The notes under the pieces are model-generated. The model did not search any database. It was not told the origin of the DNA and was given only the letters and a program-made list of their open reading frames with translations. This document shows, piece by piece, positions 1,313 to 64,000 of a stretch of 64,000 nucleotides of DNA. The stretch's first letter is position 1, and every line of letters begins with the position of its first letter. The stretch is from Saururus chinensis. Taxonomy: Eukaryota > Streptophyta > Magnoliopsida > Piperales > Saururaceae. Where the stretch lies: contig CP141147.1 in assembly GCA_035235625.1 (NCBI GenBank), positions 7,305,001-7,369,000 on the forward strand, read 5' to 3'. The position numbers and the translations under genes are program-made.

Positions 1313-4300
1313 GTAACATCTAGGAATTTCTAAATTTTCGAAGTCGACTACGTGGAAATTAGGGTATTGGACCCCTTGACCTTCTTGTTAGAATACCTCG
1401 ATCATCAATTGGAACTGGTGTCTGAAACTTATATGGACAGAAAGTAAATAGAAAGATCTTTGAAATGCCACCAAGAATGCATAAATCGGAGTTTAGATGA
1501 GGGAGATAAGACCATTCGAAGTTGATTATAAAGCGAGGGGCCCATTTACCCGAATTGGACGTGCGAATTGACCATTTAAGTCACTATTTAGGCCCAATTA
1601 ATTAAGGTGACGAAAATTAACTTTTATGGGCCCAATTAAGTTGCCGAATTGAGGATGTTTGGCCAACTTTTAGGGGGATTAGGGTTCCTAATCCCCATGT
1701 TTATAAATAGGGCATCTTAGGGCTCAATGAAGGGGATTTGTTTTAGACCGTTGGAAAGGAGAGAAGGAGCCATCGGGGGAGGCAACCAATTACGAAGGTG
1801 GAACAGAGTAAGCTCGAAGGTGGGCAGTGGATCGACAACAACTACGTTTGAGGTAAGTTTGTTGAATCATCTTTGAGTAAAGATTAAAATAATATTAATT
1901 TAATGTATAGGTAGATTCATAGGTAAAAGTTAATTAGTGGGCAACTTTCCGACCACCAAACAGATGCTCTAGCTAAATCCCCAGTCACCTGTAATTAATC
2001 ACAAGGGTAGGAGACAAACAGTGACTAACACCAGTGAGTGGAATCCAAGGATTTCAGTTTGCTCTCATGTTTTGGATTACCTTGCCACCGGCCGCCACCA
2101 CAAACTATATCTCCTCGTGACCTCTTTTCTTCTCCGACAGTTTTACAGATTGTTTTGGCAGTGACAACTTGTCGACCTCGCCGGACGGCCGCCAGATGAG
2201 GTTTCGCCCTTTGATCCTACTTACTATGGTGGAAGCTTCGCCCTTGCTGGCAATCCTTTCCGGCAGGAAGTTGTCGTCGACCGGTATTGATTCGCTGCCA
2301 AAGAATCTATAATTTTAATTTCAATTTTTGCCTTTGTGATTCCTCACCCAAGGTTCGGATCAGGGCTGGCGACGAGATATGGGCTCCCGGACTCACCGAG
2401 CAATGGCAGTCCGGTTGAGCCAGCCCCTCGCCGGACCATGATGGGTGGCCGGAAGCCACCGAGTAAAAACAAATGGGCCCTTTTGTCCCTGGCGGGGCTA
2501 GTCTCATCAGAATCGCCACCAGGTGGCGATCTAATTTTTCCCAGCCCTCGCCCCTTGCGGTGGCACCTCCAAAGGTTAGCCGGCCTCTGGCCAGCTGCGA
2601 AGTAGACAACCTGCATAGAAGGTTGTCGAATTCGGTTCTAGGCCGGGCTAGGAGACCCAACCCGTTCGGCCCCTTTTTTTTAGAAGAGAAAATAACCCTT
2701 GAACCGGTCCCTGTTTAGTAGGGATGTGGAAAAAATTTAAGAAAATTATATAATGTCCGAGGGAACATTATGAGTAATGGGACCAAGTTTCAGATGAGGA
2801 AAAATCCTAAAGTGTGTAAAATGACAATTTTAACCTTAGAGTTGAAATGTATTAATATTTAATTACGCATCTTAGGTTCCGATTCAGGGTGGTTTAGATG
2901 TTAAAAAAATTAGAAAAATTCCCAATGGACCTTGAGAGGTGTGGGAGTATTCTGACAAAGTTTCAGACCTAAAAAAAATTCCATAACTGTAAAATGACCC
3001 TTTTACCCCTTATAACTAAATTACTGCGTGATATTCACTTACCCGAACTGGGGGCTCCAGTTTAGGGGCCTATGAGTGGATTAAAAAATTGGAGAAATTT
3101 CCAGTAAGAGATGAATATGTACTTTAAATATAGACCAAACCACATAGAGGAAAAATCCCAGTGAGTGGGTAATTGACTATTTTACCCCTAGGGTTAATCG
3201 TAAACCATTAAGTCGACTAAGGTCGGTTAAAGGGGCACATGACCCCGATAATCGCAAGGAAAATTACACTGATTCCATGAAGTCAAGTAGTACGCTTGAG
3301 ACTAATTTTAGACTCATTGGATGTCAATAAGGCCTTTAACAAAATGATAAAAATACCCCTTCAAGTAGACCGCTCACATACATGTGAATGGAAGCACGAG
3401 TCAGTTTGAGAGTGGAGCTTTGTGAGATGTCAATGACTTAAAATCAAAAGAAGGTAGTGAAATGAACAGAATGACCCAATGGAGGGTACCATACCCTATG
3501 TGGTAAAATTACCCTAATGCCCCTAGGGACAGTATATTCCATTTTGCCAAGACGTATAACTTAGGTAAAGCGTTACGGTACCCTAGAATGACATTGAATG
3601 GCTTCGAAAGGAAGGGGTGTGACCAGTAGGTGACATGAAGACCTTGACAGGTCACAGTGTCACTGGAAATAAGGGGAAGAACCCTAATTCTTAGGGTTTA
3701 AGGTAGTGTATTACACGTGTCTGCAACCTAGTGCATCGATCAACTAGAGTATTATATACATATCTCGTGTGATGTGTTAGAGTTATTTACATTCACAAGC
3801 TTGAATTCGCAGAGCCCTAGCCCTGCAGATGAGTGCAATGGGCCTTCATTTTTTATTTATGCACTTGTGTGACTGAATGTTATTTATGTTCATTATTCTA
3901 ATGCATGCTTTTATTATTGATGTGTTAAGTTATATCAATAAGTTAAGGGTAATAAAGACTAATCAATATTTGTTGTCATTGGATTGGGGGAGAACATCTA
4001 ATTAAGATAAAGATTAAAATAACCTCAATAGGGTTTGGGACTGGTTCATGGAGTGAACTGGGCCTTGACATAGAATGTTACCTTGGTTAATGAAGTAAGG
4101 GTTGTTATAGGAGTTTACCCTAGTCTCATAGAGACTATTAGGGTTTGGGGATGTTCTCCGAGTCATAGCTCAGTGGATGAGCTATTTATTAGGCCGATTC
4201 ACAATGTGAAGAGGACCGAAATGGTTGGGCAAATACTTGACTAGATGAAAATAATCTAATTTATGTTTTAAATGTTTGGGAGAGTCAATGGTCATAAAGA

Positions 4301-57048: not shown

Positions 57049-57950
57049 ATTTGTTTATAGTATGTTTTGGCACTCTTCTCTACCGACCTGTTTTATCATA
57101 TATGGGGTGCTTTCAAACAAAAACAAAAGATATTGTTTTCGAGGGGGTGGGATCTGCATTAACTTTTGTTCTGTTTTTAGCAACTTCCATTGGCATCGTG
57201 CATGCATTTGACCTTTGGTTTCTGAATCGTGTTGAAATGAATAGGCCCCACATCTTCAATTGAATGTAAAATAGTGGGCTGCCGCCTTGAGGAATCTTCA
57301 TCTATCACGGTCTCTGCAAAGGGATTCAGCGACAAATCGGCTGAATTTCGGTTTGACAAAAAAATGAGAGAGAAATTCGTCTCATTAAAAAATAATGATA
57401 AAAGGTATGTATCTATTTGCCGTTTGTATTAAATGGTAATTTACACATTACCTACTTAGACATATGTTATTTTCTTATTATAGGGATTTTTTTCCAATTA
57501 CAACAAGTTATCTACACGTAGGCTAAAATACCCCCTTATCTATATCTTTTCCTCCCTTCTTCCTATTTTCCTTCTCATTCCTCTAGCATCTTCAATACCC
57601 AAAAGTTGAGGTTGTTCTACCATATTATGGCATTTGCTCCTTCATCGATCTAGTATCTTTCCCGAATGAGTTCTCATAGATCTCCACCTTATGACATCTT
57701 TCATCCTCTACCTTCTCCCCCACCACTTTGGAAGCTTTGGCGTGCCAACATATGACAAGATAAGATGTTATGGTAGTAAAAAAGAAGCTTAATCAAGGTA
57801 TCCAACTTAGTAGTGAACTTTTGGTTTGGTTTTGACATGTTGTCATGGACAAGTTAGGAACTTTTGGTCTTTTTGCATTGTTGCTAAATCAATTTAGCAA
57901 TGTCATTGAATCGATTCAGCATTATAGAAAAACCAATCCAACATTATTCA
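57049..57950. promoter_or_regulatory. Upstream region of AKR gene 2
   Basis: About 900 bases between the gene and the CACTA end at 57951. AT-rich with a pyrimidine-rich patch (57540-57600). No gene; no promoter element assigned with confidence. Confidence 0.35.
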
Positions 57951-58925
57951 CTACAACAAAATGTACTATTAGCGATGTATATAAAAGCATCGCTATAAAT
58001 CACTACTTGCAACGCATAATAATATGTGTCGCTAATAGTCATTTTTTAGTGATGCTTAATTTAAAGCTTTGCTAATACTAACCATATTAGAAAAGCTTTT
58101 AAATAAGCACCGCTAATTAGTTACGCTATTAGCGAAGCTTTAAACAAGCATCGCTAAAAGATATTTAATTTTTTAAAAAAAATTATAATTATTAGCTACA
58201 CTTTTTCTTAAGCATAGATTAACTATTAACGACGTTTAATAAAAGCGTCCCTAATAGTAATGAATTTAAAATATAAAATTTAAAACTATTAGCGACACTT
58301 TTAATTAAGCATCGCAAATAGCATTGATAATAGCGACACTTGTTATAAGTGTCGCTATTAGCTTTATTAATTAATTTTATTTAATAAATAATTATATAAT
58401 AAATAGATATTAAAAAATTAAAATAAACTTCTTAAATATAATATATTTTATTTAATATTTACTATTTATATATGAAATAAATAAATATTAAATTTTCAAG
58501 AAAAGGTAGTGCCAATAATAGATTAAACTTTCACTATTTTTATATAATATATTTTATTTCTTAAATTTTTTTATTAATTTTAAAATATAATTTATAATAA
58601 AATAGAGAGAGTGAAGAGAGCAAGAGATAGAAAGACCGATCAGGAGAGAGAGAAGATAGATAGATAAGGAGAGCGAGAAGGAGAGGAGAGACAAAGAGAA
58701 GAGAGGATAAGGAGAAAGAGAGGACGAGATAGAAGGTAGAGAGAGAGAGGAGGAGGAGAGAGAGAAGAGATAGAGAGGAAAGAGAGAGAGGGAGGAGAGA
58801 GGAGGGAGAGAGGGGAGAGAGAGAGAGGAAGAGAGAGAGTAGAGGAGAGAGAGGGGGAGAGAGAAAGGAGAGAGAAAGGAGAGAGAGAGGAGAGAGAGAA
58901 AGGAGAGAGAGGAAGAGAGGAGAGG
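57951..58925. mobile_element. CACTA transposon left end and subterminal array
   Basis: Starts CACTACAACAAAATG, followed by TACTATTAGCGATG and many TAGCGAYGCTT palindromes (57965-58360), an AT-rich spacer (58380-58600) and a GA tract (58604-58925). Continues after the inserted LTR at 62734. No transposase seen in the window. Confidence 0.85.
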
Positions 58926-61900
58926 TATAATATCCTGAATTTTCTAGCTTTTAAAAATTAAATATATGGAAAATAAGGTGTTTGACCCTTTGACCTTCTT
59001 AGTAGAATAACTTCCTCCCTAGATAGAATTTGTGGCTGAAAATTATGTGGTTAGAAAGTAGTCAGAAAGAACTTTGAAACGCCACCAAGATCGTGTGAAT
59101 TGGAGTTCGGATGAGAGAGATACGACTATTCAAAGTTGAACATATCGTATAGGACCCGTTTACCCGCTTTAAACGTGTATTTGGGCCGTTTAAGTCATTT
59201 TGTGGGCCCGATTAATTAAAATTCCGAAATTAAATTTTAAAAGTCTAATTATGTGGCCTAATTGAGGAAGATTAGCCCAACTTCTAGGGAGATTAGGAAC
59301 CCTAATCCCTATATCTATAAAAAGGCTAATGAAAAAAAAAAGTTTTAACTTTTGGCTAGGGGAGGAGCCGCCGGAGAAGCTGGACAATAGCGGAAGATCA
59401 AGAAAGAGTTTTGAGATGGGTATTCGGGGGTTCATAAGAGAGAGTTGAAGATGACGATGATTAAATCTGTCTTCTTGCTCTTGGATAGAAAAACCCAATT
59501 GGGAATACATCGAGGAAGTGGCTAGCTTGTGACTTTGCACGGACTTACTTTCTCCTTATTTGCAGGCTTCACTTCTCTCTTCTATCAAATAGGCCTGGTT
59601 CACTCAAGCTTCTGATAATCATCAGGCTATGCGGTTTGGGGATCTTCCAAACTGGGCAATTGAGTTTATTGGCTTAATTGGTGAAGCTGCTAGTTTTAGG
59701 GTTTCCTTACACCACTCAAGTGAGGGTATTTGCGGTCACGTCGATCTCTTGTGCTTGGAGGATGGAATTGCTATTGTCTCCAGTGTCTCCTGGTGTGATG
59801 CATTTTACACGGGTCGCCAAAGAAACCGGTGCTAATGATATTAGTGGGCTAGATGAAGAGGCGCAACAGATAACTAAGGTCCCTGTTCTCTTGCTCCCGG
59901 GATTCCTGGTTCTCATGTTCGGCGATGCTCGTTATCGTTGGCAGCATGAGATAAATAGGGGACCTAATTTTCAGTTGTGGGAAGGACGAGAAATTCAGCA
60001 GAAAAAGAGAATCTCCATCACTTCGAGAAAGCTTTGCCAATCTACATAAAAGACCATGAAAACAACAAAGTGATGAACTCATTGGATTTGTAACCGCACG
60101 GATTGTATGGGCAAAAGAAAGTGAGTTGGACTGTGAGCAGTGCTATTCCAAAATAAGTTGAGGAACAGAATGAAGGTATGTTTCGCATCAAGACTGGTTT
60201 TAGGTATAATATGACTGCTCTGCACTATCCGACCTTCTTAGGATTTTTGTGGAGGGTTTAATTGATTGCATATCATATGCTAGAAAGTTTAGTATTTTAA
60301 TTGATAGAACTGTGATTTGAAGTATGACTGCTATCATCCATGTTTATTGTATGATTTATATAAATTTGTTGATCATATGTGTGTTCTCCAGTGGATGGAG
60401 AACAGAGCATTCACTGCTCTGTATTTGGCGCAGAAGGTTGTAGACAACCGGTTCACGGGTCGTATTTACCCAGTTCAGTTCAGTAAAAAAAAGATTATCA
60501 TTGAACCGGGTATGGTTTAGGAGGGTATAGGTGTTATATAAATTTTAAAATAAAAAATAAAAATTACTAATGTATCTAGAGAGGGCTAGGAGTGTCCTGA
60601 CCAAGTTTCAGATCGATGAAAAATCTCAGAGTTTGTGAAATGACCAGTTTACCCTTGTGGTTGACACGTAGACTAATAATGATTAGTGACTAGACTTCGG
60701 GGCCCCTGCAGTGCAGGGGCTTATGAGTGGATTTGAAAATTGAGAAAAATCTTAGTATGATTCTAGTGAGTATCCTAAATTGGGACCAAGCCACAAGGTC
60801 GGAAAAAATCCCAATAATTAGATAATTGACTATTTTATCCCTAGGGTTAAGGTAAGACAATTAATTGAACCGGGGTCGGTTCAAAGGGTTTACGACCCCG
60901 TTAAACGGAAAGAAAATTACCTCGGGTTCATAATGTCAAGGTGTAATACTGAGATTAGTTTTGGACCCATTGAAGTTCAGAGAAGCCCTGGACAAAAAGA
61001 TAGGAATACCCTTATGAGCATACCAGCCGATATTCGCGTGGATGAAATTAATGGGCCAATGTGATACTAAAACCTTTTGAGAGATTAACCACTTGCCTGG
61101 GAGCAGAGAGGACCTTATCCAATGTTGGATAATTACTTTAATGCCCTTATGTGCATTATGAAGTGTTTTTATAAAACTGGATCAGTTAACCCAAGGAGGG
61201 TTAGAGTGCGTGAGCTCGAATAATTCTAATATCGCTATTGAATTTGACTATTGATATTATGATATGCTTGGACATGTATGGTTCTGATTGTTTATGTTGT
61301 TTATTGTTTCGATATGGGCTATTAGTGTTGTGATAGTAACTTATCATCAGCTAATTATTGAAAGATTAATTGATGGGGTGGATAGCTTTGGATTGGGCAA
61401 GAACACCTAATTAAGATAAAGACTAATATACCTTTGAGGGGTCTGGGACTAGTTTATAGAGTTAACAAAGCCTTTGACCTGACTATTTGCCTTGGTTGAT
61501 GAACCGATGGCAGTTTTGAGTTTTAAACCCTAGTCTAGAAGGGACTAATAGGGTTTTGGATAGTTATTCAAAATCCTGGCTTAATCATGAGCAAGATAGG
61601 GTTCAGAATGATTTTCTGAGTTTTAGCTCTTTTGAGGAGCCGCTAATTTGACCGTGTAGTTGCACCTCCCCATTGGAGGGAGCTGTGCGTGAGCCGGGCT
61701 CACTTTCGATCTATTGAGGATCTTTTAGTACACACACATTTGGATTAGCTGACATTCCTTCTTGGTTGCTTTTCCCGCCACTTCTGTTCAGGTGTAGTTG
61801 TGGGCCATGCCCTTCCACTCCGGTTAGGTCCTTCGAGGGCTAGGAGGGGTGATGGTACTTCCTAGTGGATTCCAGGGGCCTCATGGATTCCAAGGTGTTT

Positions 61901-62733
61901 CGTCGTGGATTTACCTTTGAGGGTAGTTTATGGTGAGTTATCATTTGTCACTTAGGTTGACATCTGATGAGTCTGTCTGTCATTGGGAATGGATGTGGAT
62001 ATTGATTATCGAACAATGGTTCGAGTGATAATTAATAACATTGTTTGATATTGTTTGTTTAATTATAATAAGTGGAACGATTAAAGGACTTACATAAAAT
62101 GTAGGTTGCTTTAAAATACTTAAGCATTGCATGTGTAATGCTATGCTTCTTAGAATAATGTAGTTGGTAGGCAGAACTACATCTGGATCCGATCTTGTTG
62201 GAAACATTAGAGATGTTGTCTGAAGAGTACGTAGGCAACTAACATTGGGTGATATTGGCCCGATCTGAAAAATATTAAATTTTACTTTTGTTCTTTTGAA
62301 TGCTCCTCCAAGGGGAGGAGATGTTTTGTTGCATGTTTGGTCTTGTTTGCTTGTAGGTTCTTTAGATGGGGACGTTGTGAGATCAGAACGTTGGTGGGCG
62401 TTTGAGGACGACATTGTACTAGTGGGACCTAGTCTCTTGCTTTTGCAATTGTGTAAGTAATTGTGATTATTGGCATGAGAGCCAACTTTACTTGGTTATT
62501 TATTTTCGGACAAATGACAAACTTGTACTTAGAGGGTTAACTTGCTATTAATAGAATTTGACATGTGTAATAATATCATATGTTTTGATATTCGTATTTG
62601 TGAACCCCAGTTATCATGATTTGGATATTTAATTGGATGATTTGTTTTGTGTTTAAGAAAGAAGAAAAAAATCTATCGTGATTTATTGCGTGTCCTTTAT
62701 TTAAAAAGGGTTTTGAAAATCCGGGTCGTAACA
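58926..62733 (+). mobile_element. Solo LTR, family X, 3808 bp, carrying a host-gene fragment
   Basis: Starts TATAATATCCTG (family TGTAAYATC), ends GGGTCGTAACA, flanked by AGAGG on both sides (58921-58925 and 62734-62738). It is the reference copy for the pieces at 1-1312, 1313-10332, 10333-10810 and 31282-31487. No primer site, gag or pol. An AlkB-like gene fragment lies at 59611-60048. It sits in a CACTA GA tract; since GA repeats can mimic a duplication, the TSD alone is moderate evidence, but both ends match the family. Confidence 0.8.
59611..60048 (+). pseudogene. AlkB-homologue (2OG-Fe(II) oxygenase) gene fragment inside a solo LTR
   Basis: A host-gene relic on the + strand. One frame reads DNHQAMRFGDLPNWAIEF, then GICGHVDLLCLEDGIAIV. 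A second frame continues VMHFTRV, ITKVPVLLLPG, LVLMFGDARYRWQHEINR, WEGREI and KKRISITSRKL, ending in a stop at about 60049. This follows the C-terminal catalytic part of plant AlkB-like dioxygenases (nucleic-acid demethylases): the HVD iron ligands, a distal His in RWQHEINR, and the 2-oxoglutarate-binding Arg region RISITSRK. The change of frame and a missing stretch before GICGHVD show it is not functional. It lies within the LTR at 58926-62733 and has no counterpart in the sister LTR copy at 1313-10332, so it looks captured by, or inserted into, this copy. Recognition is from memory of family motifs. Confidence 0.68.
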
Positions 62734-64000
62734 AGAGGAAAGAGAGAGGAAGAGAGGAGAGGAGAGGAGAGAGAGAGAGGAAGAGAGAGATTTTAAATTG
62801 TTATTATAAATTATTTTTAAATTTTTTTATAAAAAATTTTCTATTTGCAATGCATATAAGTTTGCGTTGCTACCAACTTAGGGTATTAGTGATGCGTACA
62901 TTATGCATTGCTAATATGATTTTTTATTTAAAAAAATTAAATGAAAAGAGATAGAGAGAGAGTGAGGAGAGTGGGGAGAGAGAGAGGAGAGAGAGTGAGA
63001 GAGAGAGGACGAGATAAAGGGTAGAGAGAGAGGAGGAGGAGAGAGAGTGGAAGAGAGAGAGGGGAGAGAGAGTGACGAGAGGAGAGGAGAGGAGAGAAAA
63101 TAATTAAAATTATTATTATAAATTAATTTTAGATTTTAAAAAAATAAAAAAAATTCTTAGTAGCGATGCATACATGTATGCGTCGCTACTAGATTACTGC
63201 AGTAGCGATGCATACGCGTATGTGTCGCTACTAATGGGTGTAGTAGCGATGCAAACATTATGCATAGCTAATTTTTTTTTATTTTAAAAAATTTTAAATT
63301 ATAAGAGATAGAGAGAGTGAGGAGAGAGAAAAGAGAGAGAGGAAAGAGAGGGAGGGAGGAGATAGGAGGGAGAGAGAGATTGGAGAGAGATGGAGAGGAA
63401 GAGAGAGAGGGGAGAGAGAAGAGGAAGAGAGAGAGAATTATAATTATTATGATAAATTATTTTTAAAATTTTAAAAAAAATAAAAAAAAATTCTTAATAG
63501 TGATGCATATACATATGCGTCGCTACTAACTTAGGGTAGTAGTGATGCATACCCGTAGGCATCGCTACTAGCCTACTGAGTAGCAACACATACACGTATG
63601 CATCGCTACTAACGGGTGTAGTAGATACGTTATAGAGAGAGAGTGAGAAGAGAGAGGGAGAGTGAGGAGAGAGAAGAGATAGAGAGGAAAGAGAGAGAGA
63701 GGGAGGGAGGAGAGAGGAGGGAGGGAGGGAGGGAGGGAGGGAGGAGAGGAGAGGAAGGGAGAGGAAAGAGAATTAAAGTTATTATTATAAATTATTTTAA
63801 AATTTTAAAAACATAAAAAAAATTCTTAGTAGCAACACATATATGTATGTGTTTAGGGTTTAGGGTTTAGGGTTTAGGGTTTAGGGTAGTAGCAACGCAT
63901 ACCTATATGTGTCGTTACTAGCCTCCTGTAGTGGCAACACATACATGTGTCGCTAGTAACGGGTGTAGTAGTAACATATACGTTAAGCGTTGCTAATAAA
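62734..64000. repeat. CACTA-type satellite-like array, units about 330-360 bp
   Basis: Each unit is a GA tract (62734-62790, 62946-63098, 63304-63434, 63631-63770), then an AT-rich spacer (TTATTATAAATTATTTT), then palindromes of the type TAGCGATGCATACGTATGCG. Four units are seen and the array runs out of the window. Confidence 0.85.
63852..63886. repeat. (TTTAGGG)5 interstitial telomere-like repeat
   Basis: Five perfect copies of the plant telomere unit inside a satellite unit, replacing a single CTTAGGGTAGTAG word present at the same place in sister units (62877 and 63528). Confidence 0.97.

Follow-up and report, generated by a model that had tools for sequence, protein, structure and literature searches.

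The AlkB-like cassette and the LTR that carries it

The window analysed here is a stretch of 64,000 nucleotides from Saururus chinensis, which corresponds to C8:7305001-7369000 in the matched genome (516 Mb, 11 contigs). Towards its 3' end lies a solo long terminal repeat (LTR) of a putative Ty3/gypsy-type retrotransposon family. Just downstream of the TATA box of this LTR, on the sense strand relative to it, sits a cassette of host sequence composed mainly of a processed copy of an AlkB-like (ALKBH) gene. At most 40 candidates were scored in each genome search, and the cassette copy counts given below are therefore lower bounds. The features of the LTR and of its target site duplication (TSD) are as follows.

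58921..58925, no strand: left copy of the TSD AGAGG, 5 bp, in a GA-rich context and weak alone
58926..62733, plus strand: solo LTR of the Ty3/gypsy-type family, 3808 bp, ends projected from other copies
58926..59327, plus strand: U3-like segment common to a large family, so named from its position
59316..59325, plus strand: TATA-box-like TATAAAAAGG
59328..59370, plus strand: LTR leader up to the blurred ALKBH junction, delimited by eye
59358..60064, plus strand: processed copy of the host AlkB-like (2OG-Fe(II) oxygenase) gene, comprising part of exon 1, exons 2-5 and the start of the 3' untranslated region
60064..60125, plus strand: NAA60-type N-acetyltransferase exon piece, 62 nt, ending at the splice donor of the exon
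60126..60171, plus strand: remnant of a transcript captured earlier (locus X), 46 nt, common to L042 and L043
60172..60455, plus strand: segment S, 3' of the captured pieces in groups A-D and common to two LTR families
60591..62733, plus strand: remainder of the LTR, common to a large family and presumably U5-like
62734..62738, no strand: right copy of the TSD AGAGG, 5 bp

An earlier note, made from the letters of the window, had placed a host AlkB-like fragment with motifs of the 2OG-Fe(II) oxygenase domain at 59611..60048. The fragment and its motifs are present, and the span proved too narrow, as the ALKBH sequence runs from ~59358 to ~60064 with a 5' edge blurred over 59358-59385 by GC-rich likeness to the LTR leader. 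Its parent gene was found at C1:3.51 Mb on the minus strand, where five in-order blocks match at 79-90% identity (best E 2.5e-130). The parent introns of 83, 221, 77 and 984 nt have GT..AG edges, and all four, which the earlier note had asked to be checked, are gone in the LTR. When read with the end of exon 2 extended by three letters, the parent product matches PF13532 above the cut-off (E 1.3e-11) and PDB entry 5yl6 (E 3.7e-13), with no match in NCBIfam. At the protein level the broken fragment by itself gave PF13532 under the cut-off (E 0.066) and AlkB homologues in PDB at E ~0.004, which is too weak for an identification; the identity was settled by DNA comparison with the parent.

Two stretches of this gene are missing from its LTR copies, 99 nt in exon 4 and the last 3 nt of exon 2. 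We considered the 99-nt loss as a cryptic intron and rejected this, since by eye the letters of the copies better fit a jump at short similarity. The exon 2/3 junction forms a stop codon in all five copies (TAG in four, TAA in L029), and alignment places 8-12 frameshifting indels in every one of the five. There is thus no open reading frame of the kind a functional ALKBH retrogene would have and, because its frames are broken, the cassette as read cannot encode the enzyme.

Near 60064 the ALKBH sequence is fused to the NAA60-type exon piece, which matches C8:37776843-37776904 on the minus strand at 61 of 62 positions. The joined exons of this gene match 6tgx (Acyl-CoA N-acyltransferase, E 2.1e-32), which we take to be plant NAA60, and Pfam gave a sub-threshold GNAT match for its peptide (E 0.0098). 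Within the following stretch at 60126-60171, 28 nt match the X locus on C8 at 86%. The NAA60-type gene, the piece derived from X and the other host genes described below, which occupy the same position in other LTRs, go beyond what the earlier note had seen.

The ends of the LTR and its target duplication had been called clear. The ends are readable and AGAGG stands on both sides; however, the insertion site is GA-rich, so that the duplication is weak on its own. In the window LTR, which starts with TATAAT and ends with AACA, the terminal TG has become TA, and no terminal direct repeat was found within 58926-62733, nor any Rfam match in the LTR. Other copies of the family mostly start with TGTAATATC, some with TCTAAT or TATAAT, and end with GTCGTGACA or similar, giving the TG..CA ends and 5-bp target duplication of a Ty3/gypsy LTR. 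Among the nine copies with both ends readable, the duplication is exact in three (the window, L033 and L034; TTGCA and TAAAC in the two non-window copies), agrees in four of five letters in another three (L036, L038 and L040) and is absent from L029, L035 and the first LTR of L039, after which internal sequence follows.

Directly 5' of the LTR, L029 and L039 have 170 bp in common (87%) with a purine tract at its end, and 3' of the LTR end L037 and L039 have 291 bp of the same internal start in common (82%). A purine tract and pol end on one side and a common internal start on the other represent both inner edges of an LTR retrotransposon. The ends look inverted, but the purine-tract and pol-end sequence and the 5-bp TSDs led us to discard the reading as a DNA transposon. 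The assignment to gypsy remains putative and rests on the pol end CEDAILLRREECN, which looks gypsy-type, and on an open reading frame for an RVP_2 retroviral protease located upstream of the L029 LTR; reverse transcriptase-like sequence was seen by eye beyond the opposite end of this LTR. This reading frame could belong to another, interrupted element, and nesting is possible.

Spread of the cassette and other host transcripts in the same slot

The ALKBH/NAA60 cassette is present with the same edges and the same losses in five LTRs, located on C8, C2 (twice), C5 and C7, which points to one capture followed by spread. The four further LTRs are as the earlier note had predicted for a family that spread after the capture. 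The flanks of the five have matches in common only away from the LTR edges. At the ALKBH/NAA60 junction L003 and L030 retain ten extra letters compared with the other three copies. Distances of the ALKBH part to the window copy range from 0.065 to 0.143, and those between parent and copies from 0.105 to 0.122. The NAA60 pieces differ from their parent by 1, 2, 2, 5 and 5 mismatches in 62 nt, one of the last two with a gap in addition, so that identity to the parent is 90-98% for this piece and 88-90% for the ALKBH part. In the copy at C5:20.24 Mb (L028/L003) the LTR flanking the cassette on both sides is more diverged from the window than the cassette itself.

LTRs without the fragment are present as well. 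A probe of the U3 side (58925-59500) gave 4158 first-look candidates, and 37 of the 40 scored rows stop near 59312-59333, before the cassette. A probe of the U5-like part (61700-62732) gave 5533 first-look candidates, of which 40 were scored. TATAAAA is present in 15 of the 16 LTR segments compared and absent from L003.

The stretch between the TATA box or leader and the downstream part of the LTR varies widely among the compared copies, and this slot has been reused for other host transcripts both in this family and in a second LTR family. One group holds the spliced transcript of a gene at C5:47582825-47593621, presumably L18a-like by its look, with six exons and all five introns gone. Four members were read (L038, L039, L040 and L041), and C2:54.70, C3:42.1 and a partial copy at C11:26.41 are known as matches only. 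The L18a-like piece ends at ACAAG|GTGAAC.

The second family consists of L042, L048, L053 and L054, whose U3 segments are 82-85% alike. Compared with the window, the L042 U3 matches only in 93 bp at 73%, in a diverged LTR near 1314-1711, and segment S downstream of the capture is common to both families. The slot of L042 is filled by locus X, which is multi-copy in the genome, with two splice junctions. L048 combines three sources: gene Y (C10) with its 5' part, a C6 gene, putatively acyl-CoA thioesterase-like by resemblance, with three exons, and gene Z (C4) with a piece that by eye consists of the end of one exon and the start of the next; three introns in total are gone. We had assigned the tail of L048 before segment S to locus X; this was rejected, as the tail is the next exon of Z, and one supposed donor-site junction was withdrawn with it. 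In L053 and L054 gene Y, which shows no intron there, stands directly behind the TATA box, and two further Y matches on C4 adjoin matches of the same U3.

Taken together, at least 18 copies fall into five kinds of cassette (5 + 7 + 1 + 1 + 4), five of them known from matches only and one of these partial. The variable regions of L034 and L014 yielded no exon series among the 40 candidates scored for each, out of 649 and 281 respectively, so that a lower-ranking parent gene could have been missed; they gave many dispersed matches, which we took as other LTR copies. Pfam returned nothing for the L18a-like or thioesterase-like peptides and, among the open reading frames of ten regions inspected by eye, no match for the one each submitted from L042 and L044.

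Probable routes of host RNA into the LTR

Five of the host pieces span introns, and all 14 spanned introns are absent; two further pieces span none. All seven pieces have the same orientation as the element. These findings lend good support to capture at the RNA level during reverse transcription. It seems very probable, judging from the sequences compared, that spliced host RNA was copied into a retrotransposon LTR during reverse transcription and then spread with its passenger. Synthesis of the first DNA strand would have proceeded from U5 toward the 5' end of the element RNA and continued into host sequence, first through the NAA60-type exon and next along the AlkB-like mRNA as far back as exon 1. 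A transfer to the U3/leader by way of GC-rich similarity may have followed, incorporating the host sequence into the LTR immediately behind the promoter, where the cassette would presumably be an idle passenger.

How the host RNA was joined to the element can be explained by two routes. The first, which appears to us evenly poised between right and wrong, is free template switching at short similarity among RNAs packaged together, a mechanism already put forward for the known LTR elements that bear genes. It is consistent with the letters that the junctions have in common (4, 2 and 2), with the GC-rich likeness at the leader/ALKBH edge and the 2-nt similarity at the 99-nt loss in exon 4 (both by eye), and with the junctions Z|S and Y|thioesterase-like, which misfit splicing. 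However, it does not predict the GT/AG signals found at three of the four host-host junctions.

These signals are better accounted for by read-in splicing (5' transduction), which we regard as a good possibility short of probable. An element would once have lain in or behind a host gene, and a transcript from the host promoter would have been spliced from a host donor to a cryptic acceptor in the 5' region of the element, often in an earlier captured piece. The hybrid RNA would retain the 3' parts of the element and be reverse transcribed, with only the U3/leader transfer being abnormal, and each round would swap out the 5' part of the prior capture. At ALKBH|NAA60, NAA60|X and thioesterase-like|Z, the fit is to a GT following the upstream piece and an AG preceding the downstream piece; the test was post hoc, with a simulated chance of 6e-7 to 2e-6. 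The NAA60 piece stops at a protein-supported exon end, and the L18a-like piece has its donor-like end as given above. By hand count AGGTR follows three of six host pieces (ALKBH, NAA60 and L18a-like; not X, thioesterase-like or Z), with a chance of 2e-6 to 9e-6 for windows of 3-5 nt. The fit at three of four junctions is suggestive of host exons joined to the element by splicing, as read-in transcripts, with only the 5' edge being a jump of the reverse transcriptase. We tentatively raise the idea that the slot behind the promoter may be a recurrent landing site for host exons through serial 5' transduction in plant LTR retrotransposons, in which a host donor is spliced into acceptors of the element and every round swaps the 5' transcribed region of the LTR for the start of a new host gene.

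Several observations weigh against the copying of spliced host RNA followed by spread. Besides the GT/AG signals, which free switching does not predict, the NAA60 piece is in every copy as close to its parent as the ALKBH part or closer, on a stretch that is admittedly short. For the C5 copy the distance to the window is 0.300 in the U3, as against 0.143 in the ALKBH part, a gap not expected from one lineage without faster change of the LTR or exchange of the cassette; either this LTR is faster-changing or the cassette moved between LTR lineages. Capture in the LTR before integration would place the cassette in both LTRs of an element; among the five copies, which are solo, truncated or single LTRs, no element has it in both, and L029, which lacks a TSD, is situated within other gypsy-like sequence.

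Capture at the DNA level by a Pack-MULE, a Helitron or repair filler is very improbable. The presence of several genes in one element is Helitron-like, and the intronless gene Y is uninformative. However, Pack-MULEs and Helitrons capture intron-bearing genomic sequence with a TSD of 8-11 bp or none, and here every spanned intron is absent, all pieces are in sense, and the element has LTR ends, a purine tract and TSDs of 5 bp.

Least credible of all is a processed pseudogene of long interspersed nuclear element (LINE) type that landed in the LTR: the cassette is a processed copy, but by eye neither the ALKBH nor the NAA60 piece ends in a poly(A) and the cassette edges show no nested duplication, the A-run at 59331-59341 sits in the leader, 5' of the cassette, and the copy is fused to a second gene in a slot that holds other genes in other LTRs. 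Of the two origins that the earlier note had offered, capture during replication and insertion of a processed copy, uptake by way of RNA thus stands, and a separate processed copy is disfavoured by the missing poly(A) and edge duplication.

Comparison with known elements and neighbouring sequences

In the Bs1 LTR retroelement of maize the host pieces are reportedly internal, whereas here the LTR itself contains them, downstream of its promoter, and different genes occupy the same slot of different LTRs. As described in the cited passages, Bs1 has transduced segments of three host genes in one element (PMC13317346) and holds exons only (PMC4717578), in both of which it resembles the present LTRs. 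The soybean terminal-repeat retrotransposon in miniature (TRIM) GmaRetroS15 and other gene-bearing TRIMs likewise contain intronless exons of several genes and were amplified after capture; according to the same source their genes are in the internal region instead of the LTR (PMC4717578). BARE-2 and Veju are chimeras formed by abnormal template switching (PMC13317346; general model in PMC1950507). BARE-2 is similar in that foreign sequence was put in the LTR region, while the donor in these chimeras is given as another retrotransposon or unknown DNA and not a host mRNA. Among 425 maize LTR elements with host gene fragments, none is stated in the passages cited to hold more than one standard nuclear gene (PMC2774510), whereas here one LTR has pieces of at least two.

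In the literature searches made, in a library lacking most subscription papers, the titles and starts of abstracts listed showed no report of host mRNAs inside LTRs; the wording 'within LTRs' in PMC3445842 refers, in the passage concerned, to assembly gaps. In the plant cases described, so far as these sources go, host pieces are in the internal region or their place in the element is unstated. That plant LTR elements capture genes is known, and repeated capture inside the LTR itself looks new. A cassette in the LTR is directly under the element promoter and is retained in solo LTRs, and is therefore able to spread widely and could supply silencing pathways with sense RNA of host genes. If the GT/AG signals hold in a larger set, free switching and read-in splicing become directly testable against each other from sequence.

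A splice-donor-like GGTAGG is present ~100 nt past the TATA box in six of seven ordinary LTR leaders compared (L034, L012, L014, L016, L033 and L036; not L013), which suggests an intron start inside the LTR. In L039 (621-10000) two LTRs with unlike variable regions are separated by 535 bp with two purine-tract/LTR-start junctions inside; the arrangement is recombinant or nested. The C7 LTR (L029) stands between protease-coding and reverse transcriptase-like gypsy sequence, as if a 3' end with its LTR had landed in another element. The window itself contains a diverged relative of the same LTR at 1314-3358, with a U3 at 73% and no ALKBH cassette.

GA-rich arrays alternating with palindromic units adjoin the LTR at 62947-64000 and at ~57950-58330, the latter delimited by eye. 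The palindromic units are ~42 bp long (AGTAGCGATGCATACACGTATGCGTCGCTACTA..), and a higher-order unit of 337 bp is seen at 63088-63833. Within this GA-rich and palindromic array, 5.3 perfect copies of the plant telomere-type TTTAGGG lie at 63851-63887.
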